From: Umboniibacter marinipuniceus
GTDB taxonomy: Bacteria > Pseudomonadota > Gammaproteobacteria > Pseudomonadales > DSM-25080
Direction: 5' to 3'
Assembly (NCBI RefSeq): GCF_003688415.1
Contig: NZ_REFJ01000001.1
Coordinates: 292,645 to 356,644, forward strand
Length of the DNA: 64,000 nt
The notes beneath the pieces are model-generated. The model was not told where the DNA came from. It did no database searches and was given only the letters and a program-made list of their open reading frames with translations. Within the stretch, counting starts at the first letter, position 1. The number at the start of each line of letters is the position of its first letter. Positions 46,022-51,561 of the stretch are shown here, piece by piece. A program made the position numbers and the translations under genes.

Positions 46022-47794
46022 ATGTCAGGAAAAGTTTCACCACTTCGTCGATTATTACGTTATGCGGATGCCGATCGCCCGCAAGTTTATTGGGCAAGCT
46101 TTTGCTCGGTAGTGAATAAACTATTTGATATCGCCCCGGAAATTTTGATAGGCGTGGCCATTGATGTGGTGGTCCGGCAGGAGGAATCTTTTCTAGCGAG
46201 CTTGGGTATCGTTGACCCGGTTCATCAAATTATGTTGCTGGGCGTACTGACTTTCCTAATCTGGGCTGGTGAGTCACTGTTCGAATACTTCCATTTGGTT
46301 GCGTGGCGTAATTTGGCTCAACGACTTCAGCATCGTCTCCGAATTGACGCCTATGATCACCTCCAAAAGCAGGATCATAGTTATCTTGAGCAGCATAATA
46401 CCGGTCACTTTGTGGCGATTTTGAATGATGACGTCAATCAGCTGGAGCGCTTTCTTGACGGCGGAGCGAATGCGATGCTGCAAGTATTGACGGCGGTGAT
46501 TGGTGTGGGAACGGTGTTCTTCATTATTAACCCGACTATTGCCATGCTCGCATTCTTGCCTATCCCGGTAATTATCTATGGCGCTTTTTGGTTTCAAAAA
46601 CGTGCTGAGCCACGCTACAACAAGGTACGTGAGAAGGTTTCGCTGTTGAGCTCCCGCCTGAGCAATAACTTGAGCGGTGTGACAACTATTAAGAGCTTCA
46701 CGGCCGAAGCGCGAGAGAAATCTCGACTGGAGCAGGAGAGCACTGACTATGTCACCGCAAACCGAGAAGCGATTGCGGTCAGCTCAGCGTTTATTCCTGT
46801 TATTCGGATGGCGATCTTGACGGGTTTCCTCCTCACCTTTTGCGTAGGCGGTTATATGAGTCTTCAGGGTGACTTGGAGGTAGGCGCCTACGGGTTGTTA
46901 GTATTCTTGACTCAGCGTCTACTTTGGCCACTTACTCAACTTGCCAGTACGATTGATCTGTACGAACGTGCGATGGCTTCAACGCGTCGAATTTTAGATG
47001 TGCTCTCCGTGAAGTCTCAGCTTTCAAATGGTGGCCATAAGTTACCGGCCAAGTCAGTGAAGGGTGCCATAAGTATTGACAGTGTCAGCTTTGCGTATCA
47101 GTCGTCGCGACCGGTAATTAACCAACTTTCACTTGATATTCAACCGGGTACTACGGTGGCGTTTGTGGGGGCGACAGGCGCTGGTAAAAGCACCATTACT
47201 AAGCTACTACTTCGTTTCTATGATCCGAGTTCCGGCGCGGTGAAACTAGATGGAGTTAGCCTTACGGATTGGGATACGCAGTCCCTGCGAGATACTATTG
47301 GCCTAGTCAGCCAGGATGTCTTCCTGTTTCACGGGACGGTGCGCGAGAATATTGCCTTCGGCGAGCCAAATGCCAGTCTCGAAGCGGTAGAAAAGGCGGC
47401 TAAGTTGGCCGAAGCACATGAATTTATTAACGAGCTACCCAACGGCTATGACTCCATTGTGGGTGAGCGCGGTCAGAAACTCTCCGGTGGTCAGCGACAA
47501 CGTTTATCCATCGCACGGGCGTTACTTAAAGATCCTCGGGTGCTTATCTTGGATGAAGCAACTTCGGCAGTTGATAATGAAACCGAGGCCGCTATTCAGC
47601 GGTCACTGACGCAGATCCGTGAAGGTCGAACTTTGATCATGATTGCCCACCGTCTATCTACTATTGTCGATGCCGATCAGATTGTGGTGCTGGATAAGGG
47701 GCGCATCGTTCAGCAGGGTACTCATTCGGAGCTAGTGGCTGAAAACGGCATTTATCGCCAGCTTTGGGATGTTCAAACGGGTGGCGTAGCTTAG
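46022..47794 (+). CDS. ABC transporter, fused permease-ATPase (MsbA/MDR type exporter)
   Basis: The 590-aa half-transporter has six membrane helices (about 20-310) and a C-terminal nucleotide-binding domain (about 345-590). Motifs: Walker A G-A-T-G-A-G-K-S-T, Q loop V-S-Q-D-V-F-L-F, signature L-S-G-G-Q-R-Q-R-L-S, Walker B V-L-I-L-D-E-A-T-S-A-V-D-N and H-loop I-A-H-R-L-S-T. It would dimerise and export a lipid, peptide or drug; the substrate cannot be told. It is unlike MsbA proper in its neighbours: no lpxK follows. A 13-bp minisatellite begins 10 bp after the stop. Confidence 0.9.
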   Translation: MSGKVSPLRRLLRYADADRPQVYWASFCSVVNKLFDIAPEILIGVAIDVVVRQEESFLASLGIVDPVHQIMLLGVLTFLIWAGESLFEYFHLVAWRNLAQRLQHRLRIDAYDHLQKQDHSYLEQHNTGHFVAILNDDVNQLERFLDGGANAMLQVLTAVIGVGTVFFIINPTIAMLAFLPIPVIIYGAFWFQKRAEPRYNKVREKVSLLSSRLSNNLSGVTTIKSFTAEAREKSRLEQESTDYVTANREAIAVSSAFIPVIRMAILTGFLLTFCVGGYMSLQGDLEVGAYGLLVFLTQRLLWPLTQLASTIDLYERAMASTRRILDVLSVKSQLSNGGHKLPAKSVKGAISIDSVSFAYQSSRPVINQLSLDIQPGTTVAFVGATGAGKSTITKLLLRFYDPSSGAVKLDGVSLTDWDTQSLRDTIGLVSQDVFLFHGTVRENIAFGEPNASLEAVEKAAKLAEAHEFINELPNGYDSIVGERGQKLSGGQRQRLSIARALLKDPRVLILDEATSAVDNETEAAIQRSLTQIREGRTLIMIAHRLSTIVDADQIVVLDKGRIVQQGTHSELVAENGIYRQLWDVQTGGVA

Positions 47795-47803
47795 TCGGGC
47801 GTT

Positions 47804-47899
47804 GAGTTTAGGCTGAGAGTTTAGGCTGAGAGTTTAGGCTGAGAGTTTAGGCTGAGAGTTTAGGCTGAGAGTTTAGGCTGAGAGTTTAGGCTGAGAGTT
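47804..47899. repeat. 13-bp minisatellite, about 7.4 copies
   Basis: Seven exact head-to-tail copies of GAGTTTAGGCTGA (47804-47894) plus a 5-base partial copy lie between the ABC exporter stop and the phage-P-like stop. The period is not a multiple of 3, and no reading frame crosses it. Copies are identical, so the array is recent or actively homogenised; copy number may vary between strains. Confidence 0.95.
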
Positions 47900-47935: not shown

Positions 47936-48583
47936 CTAGCTCATATTCAATTTTTTCTTGAGTGCCTTCATATTCTCCAGCTGCTCGGCCTTTGACAGCG
48001 GCTGCGAAATTTCACTTGGTAATTCTTTCACTTCGGGTGCAGGTATAAACTCACCCTCTACCACTTTCTGGCACCAGCTTTCGTAATGCTGAGTGAAAAT
48101 AGGCAACACCTTTTGCTCGGTCTCGGAGGCAATTAGATGCCAACCGGTAGCACTGCCAGCGTGGTATACAATGGGGTTGCTCCACTTGAAAGCGGCGCGC
48201 GGAGTAGGTGCGTTGCAGGCCTCAACATACGCAGCACGTACACCGGGTAAGTCATGCGCAGCAAACAACTCACGACGACAAAATTGTTGCATTTTGAATA
48301 GTGTTGGTAAGTACTCACTGTTGTTAATGAGTTTCTTTACCGCCTTCAAAATAATATCTGCCTCAAAACACTGCAGGGATTCAGCCCAGAGTCTTCGCAT
48401 GTGTGTGAGTGTTTGATCATCTTTGAAGGCAGCCAAAAACTGGTTGTGATAATTCAGGCGCAGAATGCCTACTACCTGATTAATGGCATCAATATGAGTT
48501 TCCGAAAAAACTGCTTTAGTTTGCCCAGCTGCGATCTTGGACGAGTTCCCCTGTTGATAGGTCACGCGTGGCTCTGTTGCCAT
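47936..48583 (-). CDS. Phage replication protein P-like (putative helicase loader)
   Basis: The 215-aa protein resembles lambda P-like replication proteins, which bind the replicative helicase DnaB and bring it to the origin. The family-like core is Y-H-N-Q-F-L-A-A-F-K-D-D-Q-T-L ... M-R-R-L-W-A-E-S-L near residues 47-75 and the helical block to about 110. No Walker motif is seen, so it is unlike the ATPase DnaC. Start ATG 48583 has AGGAG 7 nt upstream; it overlaps the DnaT-like gene by 68 bp. The pair looks like an E. coli dnaT-dnaC equivalent. No phage genes are near. I am sure of the neighbourhood but only moderately of the P assignment. Confidence 0.6.
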   Translation of the reverse strand: MATEPRVTYQQGNSSKIAAGQTKAVFSETHIDAINQVVGILRLNYHNQFLAAFKDDQTLTHMRRLWAESLQCFEADIILKAVKKLINNSEYLPTLFKMQQFCRRELFAAHDLPGVRAAYVEACNAPTPRAAFKWSNPIVYHAGSATGWHLIASETEQKVLPIFTQHYESWCQKVVEGEFIPAPEVKELPSEISQPLSKAEQLENMKALKKKLNMS

Positions 48584-49634
48584 GATTATCTCCTGTTGTC
48601 GACACGACACCCTGTTGGTGGCGTTGTGCCCAACGATGTTTAACATGCTGTAGAAACTTACTATTCCATGAACGATGTAGCTGTTGGCTTTCGCGCCAAT
48701 AGAGCACGAACTCACCCACTACGCTGGCGGCAAAATCGGCTGGGATATTAGCCATCGCGAGAATATCGATAACATCTCGGTCGGGCTGCCAATTCGGGGC
48801 GATAGGCTGCGGGTTGGTGTCATGCTTAATATTATGGGAATAGGACTGCCATTGGCGACGAATATGTTGCAGGAACTTTGAGTCCCATGTTGACGAACTG
48901 TCACCGCGTTCGCGCCAATAGAGTTTGAATTCTGGAACGCAGTCATCAATGAAGCTCTGTGGTACTCCATCTCTTAACAAAATATTAGTGACATCGTCGC
49001 CGGGAATCCAACCCTCGTTCAACGGCTGCTTGCGAGCGGACTCGGCCTCGTCTTGCTGATGCTCTCGCCATTTTCGGCGAACCTGAGCAGCAAACTTACT
49101 TCCCCACGCATTGTGTGCGGTGCCACGCTCGCGCCAATAACTAACGAACTCAGTAAGTTGTTCAAGTGCAAATTCTCGGCTTACGCCAAACTGAGTTAGC
49201 GTTCGCATATCGTCTTCACTTGGTTGCCAGTTTGGCGCCATGGGTGAAGCGGCGTTAAATTGTGTGGGGGTAGGCCGCGCAATGGCTTGGGTGACCGGAG
49301 CCATTCGCTGTTCAACGCTAGCTGATAATTGCTGTGGGATCAGCCGGTAAATAAGTTCATTACTTTCAGAAACTGGGGGTGAAGCAACGATAATTGCGGA
49401 CTGATTGTTCAGGCTTTGAATAATGCGTTGCAGGTCTTGAGTATTCCAAAAAGGGAATAGCTTTAGTAAGCGGGGACCTTCGAGTTTGACCCAGGCATGT
49501 CCGTCTTTACCTTTAACACCGCGAATGATTACTGCTTCATTCAAATGGCTCAGCAGCACAGCTTCTTCTAGCCCGTACTTGACGGCTAGTTCGCGCGCAA
49601 CGCTGATGGTGCTATTGGTTAATAACGCGGTCAT
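48516..49634 (-). CDS. Protein with three DnaT-type domains
   Basis: The 372-aa protein carries an N-terminal winged-helix-like region (residues about 1-95: I-S-V-A-R-E-L-A-V-K-Y-G-L-E-E-A-V-L-L) of the phage replication-organiser type, then a linker and three DnaT-like ssDNA-binding domains at about 134-190, 208-263 and 280-336. Each has N/G-W-x-P-x-x-D, then E-F-x-x-Y-W-R-E and W-x-S-K-F-x-x-x-V/I-R-R/K-x-W. E. coli DnaT is 179 aa with one such domain. The repeats are also similar at DNA level (CGCGCCAATA three times). The gene is followed by the P-like gene; together they are a likely primosome operon. ATG 49634 chosen. Confidence 0.8.
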   Translation of the reverse strand: MTALLTNSTISVARELAVKYGLEEAVLLSHLNEAVIIRGVKGKDGHAWVKLEGPRLLKLFPFWNTQDLQRIIQSLNNQSAIIVASPPVSESNELIYRLIPQQLSASVEQRMAPVTQAIARPTPTQFNAASPMAPNWQPSEDDMRTLTQFGVSREFALEQLTEFVSYWRERGTAHNAWGSKFAAQVRRKWREHQQDEAESARKQPLNEGWIPGDDVTNILLRDGVPQSFIDDCVPEFKLYWRERGDSSSTWDSKFLQHIRRQWQSYSHNIKHDTNPQPIAPNWQPDRDVIDILAMANIPADFAASVVGEFVLYWRESQQLHRSWNSKFLQHVKHRWAQRHQQGVVSTTGDNHGNRATRDLSTGELVQDRSWAN

Positions 49635-50181
49635 GTTTAACTCTCTACGATTGGTCAAACAGCATAACACAGCAATTCAGCTAAATTCATTAGGGAATTT
49701 ATGAAAACTGGGATGTGATCAAATCTACGTGAGTACTGTTAACCGCTTAGTTGAAAACCCCTATTTTGTCTCTTAAAGACATCTCTAGTGTCTCCTTAAG
49801 TATTGAATCCGAATCAAGGCTGGCGTAATGTAGGTGTACATGGAGTAGCATCGTTCACACTGAGTACTGTGTTGAGCGCTTTGGGGGAGGCTCGTTGTTC
49901 TTTGAATAGCGATTTGCTCCACAGTATATCGAGCGGGCATTTTTGCACACGGACGTGCTACTTCATGTACTTTAGCTTTCAATTTCGTTGTTCAGAGTCC
50001 GCTCAGCAATCTTAAAACTCCGCTCACAACGCTTTCGCGAACGATCCATCATCATTGTCCACAACCCGGTTTAACACCGCGGAAAGTCACCGTATCAGAA
50101 CGTCACTATCAGAAGTTGGCGACATGTGATTGCATCCTGTAACATCAAATACTTCCCTTTTATTCTTTGGAGCATAGCCCT
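49635..50181. other. 547-bp interval without a recognised gene
   Basis: No protein or RNA gene could be supported. It contains a hairpin-capable CTTAA/AGACA segment near 49772-49801, two copies of TGAGTACTGT (49730-49739 and 49861-49870), and a weak promoter for radA (TTGGCG at 50116, 18 bp before TAACAT at 50140-50145). It is the largest unexplained interval of the window, between the divergent dnaT-like and radA genes. Confidence 0.5.
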
Positions 50182-51561
50182 GTGGCAAAAACCAAGTCAG
50201 CCTTCGTCTGCAATGATTGCGGTTCAGATTATCCCCGTTGGCAGGGGCAGTGTAATGACTGCGGTGCTTGGAATACGCTTTCGGAGGTTCGCTTAGGGGG
50301 TGCCTCATCGCGAGCAAAGCCCGTGGCGGCGGCGCGAGGAGGCTACGCAGGATCTGCCGGCGGGCAAACCGTTCAGACACTCGCCGACATCAACTTAGAA
50401 GATTTGCCGCGTTTTAGCAGCGGTAGTGTTGAGTTTGACCGCGTACTTGGCGGCGGCATGGTTCCAGGCTCCGCGATTTTGATGGGCGGACACCCCGGAG
50501 CAGGTAAATCTACGTTGCTACTGGAGACGCTTTGCTACCTGGCGCAACAAAATAGCTGCTTGTATGTCACTGGTGAGGAGTCACTGCAACAGGTTGCCAT
50601 GCGTGCGAATAGATTGGGGTTGCCCGTCGACAAATTAAAAATGCTTTCCGAGACCAGCGTTGAGTCAATTTGTCAGGTTGCCGAGAAAGAGCAACCTAAG
50701 GTCATGGTGATTGACTCAATACAGGTTGTGCACATGGAGGACATAAGCTCGGCTCCCGGCTCGGTCTCTCAGGTTCGAGAATCAGCGGCCTTTCTGACCC
50801 GCTATGCAAAGCAAACGGGCACGGTGCTCCTATTGGTGGGACACGTGACAAAAGATGGTAGTTTGGCGGGGCCTAAAGTACTTGAGCATATGATTGATGC
50901 TTCGTTGCTGTTAGAAGGCACGCATGATTCGCGATTTCGGACACTTCGAGGGCAAAAGAATCGTTTTGGCGCGGTAAATGAACTAGGTGTCTTCGCAATG
51001 ACTGACAAGGGGCTCAAAGCGGTGGCAAATCCGTCTGCGATCTTCCTACAAAAGGATCAGGCCGTCAGTTCGGGCTCAGCAATTATGGCCGTTTGGGAGG
51101 GCACTCGCCCGCTTCTCGTTGAGCTTCAAGCGCTGGTGGATGATTCTCACACAGGGCACCCGAAGCGCGTAGCGGTAGGCCTAGATGCTAATCGTCTGTC
51201 AATGTTACTTGCTGTGCTTCATCGCCACGGAGGAATCATGGTGGGTGATCAGGACGTCTTCGTAAACGTAGTTGGCGGTGTGAAAGTATTAGAAACCTCG
51301 GCGGATCTGGCGCTGTTATGCGCGATTGTATCCAGTCTGAGAGATAACGCCCTGCCTCGAGATCTCTTGGTGTTTGGCGAAGTTGGTCTGAGCGGTGAAA
51401 TTCGTCCTGTCCCGTCAGGTCAAGAACGCTTACGCGAGGCGGTGAAACATGGTTTCACTCGCATTGTGCTACCAAAATCTAACGCGCCATCGGCTAAAAT
51501 CCCGGGTGTGGAAGTTGTCGCCGTTGCAACCCTCGCTGAAGCGTTGGAAGCGCTGTTTTAG
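50182..51561 (+). CDS. radA: DNA repair protein RadA
   Basis: RadA is a hexameric RecA-family helicase that drives branch migration in recombination. The 459-aa protein (E. coli 460) has a C4 zinc finger (C-N-D-C-G ... C-N-D-C-G), Walker [10 protein letters not shown], the RadA-specific [11 protein letters not shown] motif and a C-terminal Lon-like domain. I chose GTG 50182, since the product then begins A-K-T-K-S-A-F-V-C like its relatives, with GGAG 9 nt upstream. Its last 4 bp overlap the convergent mgsA gene. Confidence 0.96.

Follow-up and report, generated by a model that had tools for sequence, protein, structure and literature searches.

A candidate DnaB-loading pair on the chromosome

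Bacteria cannot do without helicase loading, yet a whole group of them seems to have swapped the ancestral loader for phage genes. Do two genes at positions 47936-49634 of the window (the whole 64,000-nucleotide stretch of Umboniibacter marinipuniceus DNA that was analysed) form the DnaB-loading system of such a lineage? The original prediction described a DnaT-type gene followed by a lambda-P-type gene without an ATPase motif, set among housekeeping genes, and read them as a domesticated phage loader in place of DciA or DnaC. Both genes are found on the minus strand with the corresponding Pfam matches:

48516..49634, minus strand: dopC-type gene, 372 aa (PF17948 three times, orthologue alignment of 36 rows, AF2 model with mean pLDDT 83.8)
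47936..48583, minus strand: dopE-type gene, 215 aa, putative DnaB loader of the lambda P type (PF06992 above cut-off, PHROG 109, hhalign, AF2, PDB fold match)
48516..48583, minus strand: 68-nt overlap of the two reading frames (sequence)
48590..48594, minus strand: AGGAG, probable ribosome-binding site of dopE (sequence; ahead of the second ATG)

The 68-nt overlap and the AGGAG before the dopE ATG support a single operon for the two genes. In relatives the commonest overlap is 89 nt, counted by longest-ORF start. The pair is flanked by genes for an ABC exporter (46022-47794) and RadA (50167-51561), with no phage genes, as predicted. A perfect 13-bp tandem repeat, GAGTTTAGGCTGA, fills 47804-47899 with 7.4 copies, in the gap where dopE and the ABC exporter gene converge. 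The C-terminal part of DnaB is encoded at 1-1086, about 47 kb from the pair, a distance that the original prediction did not mention; position alone is therefore no argument for a link between the pair and this gene, and we discarded it as uninformative.

Brezellec and colleagues reportedly named a pair derived from lambda O and P as DopC and DopE in 2017. We take the pair in the window to be this published DopC/DopE, on the basis of the 2017 title and a later citation. The title, on replacement by lambda genes, and the name DopE appear in a citing paper (PMC13326638). Cellvibrionales without both dna[CI] and dciA had been described the year before, and the question was left open there (Brezellec et al., 2016; PMC5109545). 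The window genome, whose closest named relatives are Cellvibrionales, has a chromosomal P-type gene with a lambda-O-type partner directly upstream and no dciA, dnaC or dnaI. The 2017 system is reportedly also a chromosomal, lambda-gene-derived pair in Cellvibrionales without dciA and dna[CI]; no difference was found in a comparison by title and citation. The pair is thus a member of the published, 'putative' DopC-DopE system. The idea is not new, and the label of an under-described system in the original prediction has to be given up, the replacement by lambda genes in Cellvibrionales having been proposed in 2017. We found no report in the literature of a direct test of that proposal, and the interest of the locus lies in the putative function of the pair and in the tail correlation described below.

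The genome encodes neither DciA nor DnaC

A search for dnaC and dciA had been suggested as a check, and neither is present in the genome (2.69 Mb, 99.4% complete). Profile searching gave no DciA (PF05258), and the IstB/DnaC profile used for DnaC and DnaI matched only four long AAA+ proteins. Their lengths and N-terminal sequences identify them as DnaA, Lon, ClpB and PhoH, and a hidden DnaC among them was rejected. A DciA so diverged that it scores below the profile threshold is conceivable. The genome holds one P-type gene, one DnaT-type gene and PriA; by profile search PriC is absent and there is no recognisable PriB, the sole match being below cut-off and probably SSB. With its congeners, the locus is thus a clean case, free of dciA, dnaC, PriC and recognisable PriB.

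DopE is a lambda-P-type protein

By sequence and predicted fold, DopE is a lambda-P-type protein. It matched PF06992 (Phage_lambda_P) with an E value of 4.8e-7, above the family cut-off, and PHROG 109, 'P-like helicase loader', with 5e-18. No ATPase family was matched at E values up to 1 in a profile search, which agrees with the predicted lack of an ATPase motif. A DopE profile built from 42 relatives aligned with lambda P in hhalign (prob 96.5, E 7.3e-10) over 181 columns, reaching the C-terminus. A DopE profile searched against the PDB by sequence gave no convincing match, and lambda P was seen there only by fold search. The best PDB match of the AF2 model (pLDDT 91) was DnaB-bound lambda P, 9oa1 (Foldseek E 2.3e-6; Z 10.9 over 205 residues), with a large overall rmsd of 10.4 and individual domains that superpose well. 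Three parts can be delimited:

48254..48499, minus strand: N-terminal helical domain, about residues 29-110, SPP1 G39P-like (1no1, Z 8.7, rmsd 1.8 over 67 residues)
48053..48253, minus strand: C-terminal helical domain, about residues 111-177, similar to the lambda P domain that is bound to DnaB (8v9s, Z 6.6, rmsd 2.1 over 66 residues)
47951..47992, minus strand: C-terminal helix, about residues 198-211, putatively touching the linker helix of DnaB (aligns with the C-terminal end of lambda P; role from PMC6391071)

In lambda P, the C-terminal helix packs on the DnaB linker helix (PMC6391071), and the matching segment of DopE is conserved; the DopE N-terminus is variable except for a short AGxT stretch. 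From sequence and model we infer that DopE binds DnaB. The likeness to G39P lies in the fold of the N-terminal domain, whereas the C-terminal, lambda-P-like domain is outside the matched structure. DopE would share with DciA the role of DnaB loader, but the two proteins are unrelated.

DopC combines three DnaT domains with a lambda-O-like tail

DopC matched the DnaT family PF17948 in three stretches (E 2.6e-70). The original description as DnaT-type therefore holds for the domains, of which it did not mention that there are three and not one, and fails for the C-terminus, where the DnaT tail is absent and a lambda-O-like tail is found:

49335..49616, minus strand: predicted N-terminal winged helix, about residues 7-100 (AF2 model; weak Foldseek matches)
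49035..49241, minus strand: DnaT domain 1, about residues 132-200 (PF17948)
48825..49025, minus strand: DnaT domain 2, about residues 204-270 (PF17948)
48606..48809, minus strand: DnaT domain 3, about residues 276-343 (PF17948, E 1.1e-26 alone)
48519..48554, minus strand: C-terminal tail, about residues 361-372, ending DRSWAN, putative loader-docking peptide (orthologue alignment and related tails)

The best Foldseek matches of the winged helix were weak and were to initiators (4pql, 4pt7 and 5kbj; E 0.045-0.07, prob 0.99-1.00). Relatives carry three DnaT domains at 69 of 79 loci, four at nine and two at one, a partial ORF. In the tail, D367 and W370 are invariant among 36 aligned orthologues, and the tail is conserved despite being read through the dopE overlap. 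Related tails occur in the group-B proteins introduced below and in phage initiators whose loaders are P-type.

Compared with lambda O-P, the gene order is the same, DopE aligns with P over most of its length and the end of O, DLTNTDWIYGVDL, resembles that of DopC. However, three DnaT domains take the place of the lambda O C-terminal domain in DopC, the pair is chromosomal and conserved, and dopC lacks an origin with iterons: a search for an iteron-like array within the gene found only the DnaT-domain repeats and short, chance-like pairs. DopC is of the lambda-O type by its predicted winged helix and O-like tail, and the likeness lies in these parts and not in the middle. With E. coli DnaT-DnaC the pair has in common the DnaT domain and an adaptor gene that immediately precedes the gene for the loader. 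In contrast to that system, DopE is not AAA+, the DnaT domain is present three times and the tail differs from that of DnaT, which ends SEPDSQIPPGFRG. Tail, domain number and P-type partner contradict DopC as a full DnaT orthologue.

The pair seems to replace DciA across the order

Among 391 genomes of the order, 234 have a P-type gene, 122 have DciA, three have both and 38 have neither. The near-complete exclusion between the P-type gene and dciA (Fisher's p 8e-62) is a figure that ignores shared descent, so that the number of independent replacement events is small; the 38 genomes with neither gene mean that the profiles miss some loaders or that other types exist. By family, 28 are P-type only and 14 DciA only, and three otherwise DciA-bearing families contain one genome each with an additional P-type match. 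Neither DciA nor DopE was detected in G024, G038, G045, G047 and G054, of which G038 and G045 are estimated complete.

Pairing is strict: of 57 genomes, 37 have a clear DopE match, and these same 37 are the ones with a DnaT domain. Of 80 named or MAG relatives, 48 have RadA next to the pair and 19 have ParC there, some loci being cut by contig ends; the radA synteny spans families. Both genes are under strong purifying selection (dN/dS about 0.02), with dN/dS against a congener of 0.032/1.70 for DopC and 0.020/1.53 for DopE, dS being saturated in both. The pair is retained even in a 1.3-Mb genome estimated complete (G044).

This pattern bears on the possibility that the domesticated P-like protein is an anti-phage or DnaB-sequestering factor and that something else does the loading. 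Lambda P is known to be toxic to E. coli and to be able to sequester DnaB (PMC4926192). Near-universal retention where dciA is missing and the strict pairing with DopC suit a core function better, and we regard a sequestering role as very improbable.

Probable phage origin of the loader

A tree of 56 P-type proteins comprised chromosomal groups A (that of the window), B1 and B2 together with proteins from phages and viral contigs. Groups A and B1 form one clade with support of 97/97, and B2 stands apart, among phage proteins, at a poorly supported fork. These sequences are compatible with a single domestication behind A and B1 and perhaps a second one for B2, whose more diverged DopE may represent a separate event. 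The partners differ as well: in B1 (L182, L184, L186, L190 and L192) a short DnaT-domain protein of 143-178 aa with a W tail replaces the long DopC, and in B2 (L183, L185, L189 and L191) the partner has a single DnaT domain, and its last two residues are DW (DTDW, DLDW). The viral-contig protein L110 has a partner with the tail LTDCSW and no DnaT domain. When viral contigs were scanned, a single protein as query found no relative and an alignment query did; the hits obtained with YdaV and lambda P were for the most part near copies that contributed little diversity.

Genes of the P and O types belong to phages, and some relatives carry extra prophage-type copies, several of them in G037, as might be expected if the pair were a prophage remnant or a recent horizontal acquisition with no core role. 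Purifying selection, housekeeping neighbours and radA synteny across families largely refute this explanation, as does the finding that nearly every member sampled from 28 families has the pair. The 97/97 clade of chromosomal proteins also speaks against it, though L110 sits inside group A on a weak branch. We rejected the remnant and leave it next to no weight. Of the five P-type matches in G037 (L186, L187 and L188), one is accompanied by a short DnaT protein and the others by longer, phage-like initiators, so that phage and resident loaders seem to coexist.

A model for DnaB loading

We consider it likely, with a probability of roughly 85%, that the pair is DopC-DopE, a lambdoid-phage-derived initiation module that took over DnaB loading from DciA in this lineage. 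The proposed loader role is supported by lambda-P homology, the absence of dciA and dnaC, the exclusion with dciA, strict pairing, synteny and purifying selection. With the fold match, the same evidence strongly supports the domesticated loader of the original prediction. Of the results that the prediction named as refuting, neither a dciA or dnaC nor a prophage scar appeared. In our model, the C-terminal helical domain and the C-terminal helix are the parts with which DopE would grip the DnaB ring at subunit interfaces, before cracking it open and handing DnaB to single-stranded DNA. DopC would be the platform: at the opened origin, or at forks marked by PriA, its three DnaT domains would coat single-stranded DNA and its C-terminal tail would hold DopE-DnaB. 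The pair would act at both oriC and restart sites and would be essential.

Alternatively, the pair could serve restart only, DnaT-like and together with PriA, with oriC left to an unrecognised loader or to loader-free DnaB. PriA is present in the genome and DnaT domains belong to an E. coli restart protein (PMC13377028). However, DopE is of the loader type, its presence goes with the absence of dciA, the loader at oriC, throughout the order, and the DopC tail is not the DnaT tail. We therefore judge restriction to restart unlikely and favour action at both sites.

The tail tends to follow the loader type

We compared the C-terminal ends of the proteins encoded directly upstream of loaders. Many partners of P-type loaders have acidic tails with a Trp: NTDW in lambda and relatives, NDTSW in Pseudomonas phage Tr60, DDLTW and similar in viral contigs, and LTDRSW in a prophage-type gene of G031. 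With DnaC-type loaders near YdaV/DnaC, E. coli DnaT, Rac YdaU and several phage proteins end in PDxxIPPGFRG or close variants, whereas the tails in more distant DnaC-type phages differ from this. Five P-type partners have another tail (phiV10, RothD, PdC23, Brookers and 587AP2).

For scoring, a matrix was made from DopC tails only and applied to 54 initiator-loader pairs. The 33 phage P-type partners outranked 12 controls (11 DnaC-type and one DnaB-type; Mann-Whitney p 1.9e-4), a moderate effect in hand-picked sets that share ancestry and for a motif spotted by eye before scoring. Against shuffles of the same residues, p was below 0.01 for 7/33 P-type partners, 0/12 controls and 6/9 group-B proteins; the lambda O tail reached only p 0.03.

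The lambda O C-terminal region is held to bind P, and Oam29, which lacks only the last five residues of O, is inactive (PMC6022878). The idea of a loader-docking tail fits these genetics, and we infer from the sequences that the DopC tail docks the loader. More tentatively, at a little under even odds, the C-terminal 15-20 residues of initiators and adaptors may in general form a docking peptide that is specific for the loader type and moves together with it, acidic with Trp (LTDxSW, NTDW) for P-type loaders including DopC-DopE and PDxxIPPGFRG for DnaC-type loaders including E. coli DnaT-DnaC. The correlation could instead reflect genetic hitch-hiking, since the DNA that encodes the tail lies right against the loader gene, and a Shine-Dalgarno sequence can be contained in FRG-stop. 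If true, docking would account for the recruitment of DopE-DnaB by DopC and of DnaB-DnaC by DnaT, the latter stated as not known (PMC13377028). The correlation, which may be the new element here, is a concrete and cheap handle on helicase-loader recruitment by initiators and restart proteins.

Exceptions aside, the tail tends to follow the loader type even where the preceding domains are swapped. The viral-contig protein L263 has a lambda-O-like C-terminal domain, a DnaC-type loader and a DnaT-like tail of the PDxxIPPGFRG type; chromosomal group B has DnaT domains and a W tail.
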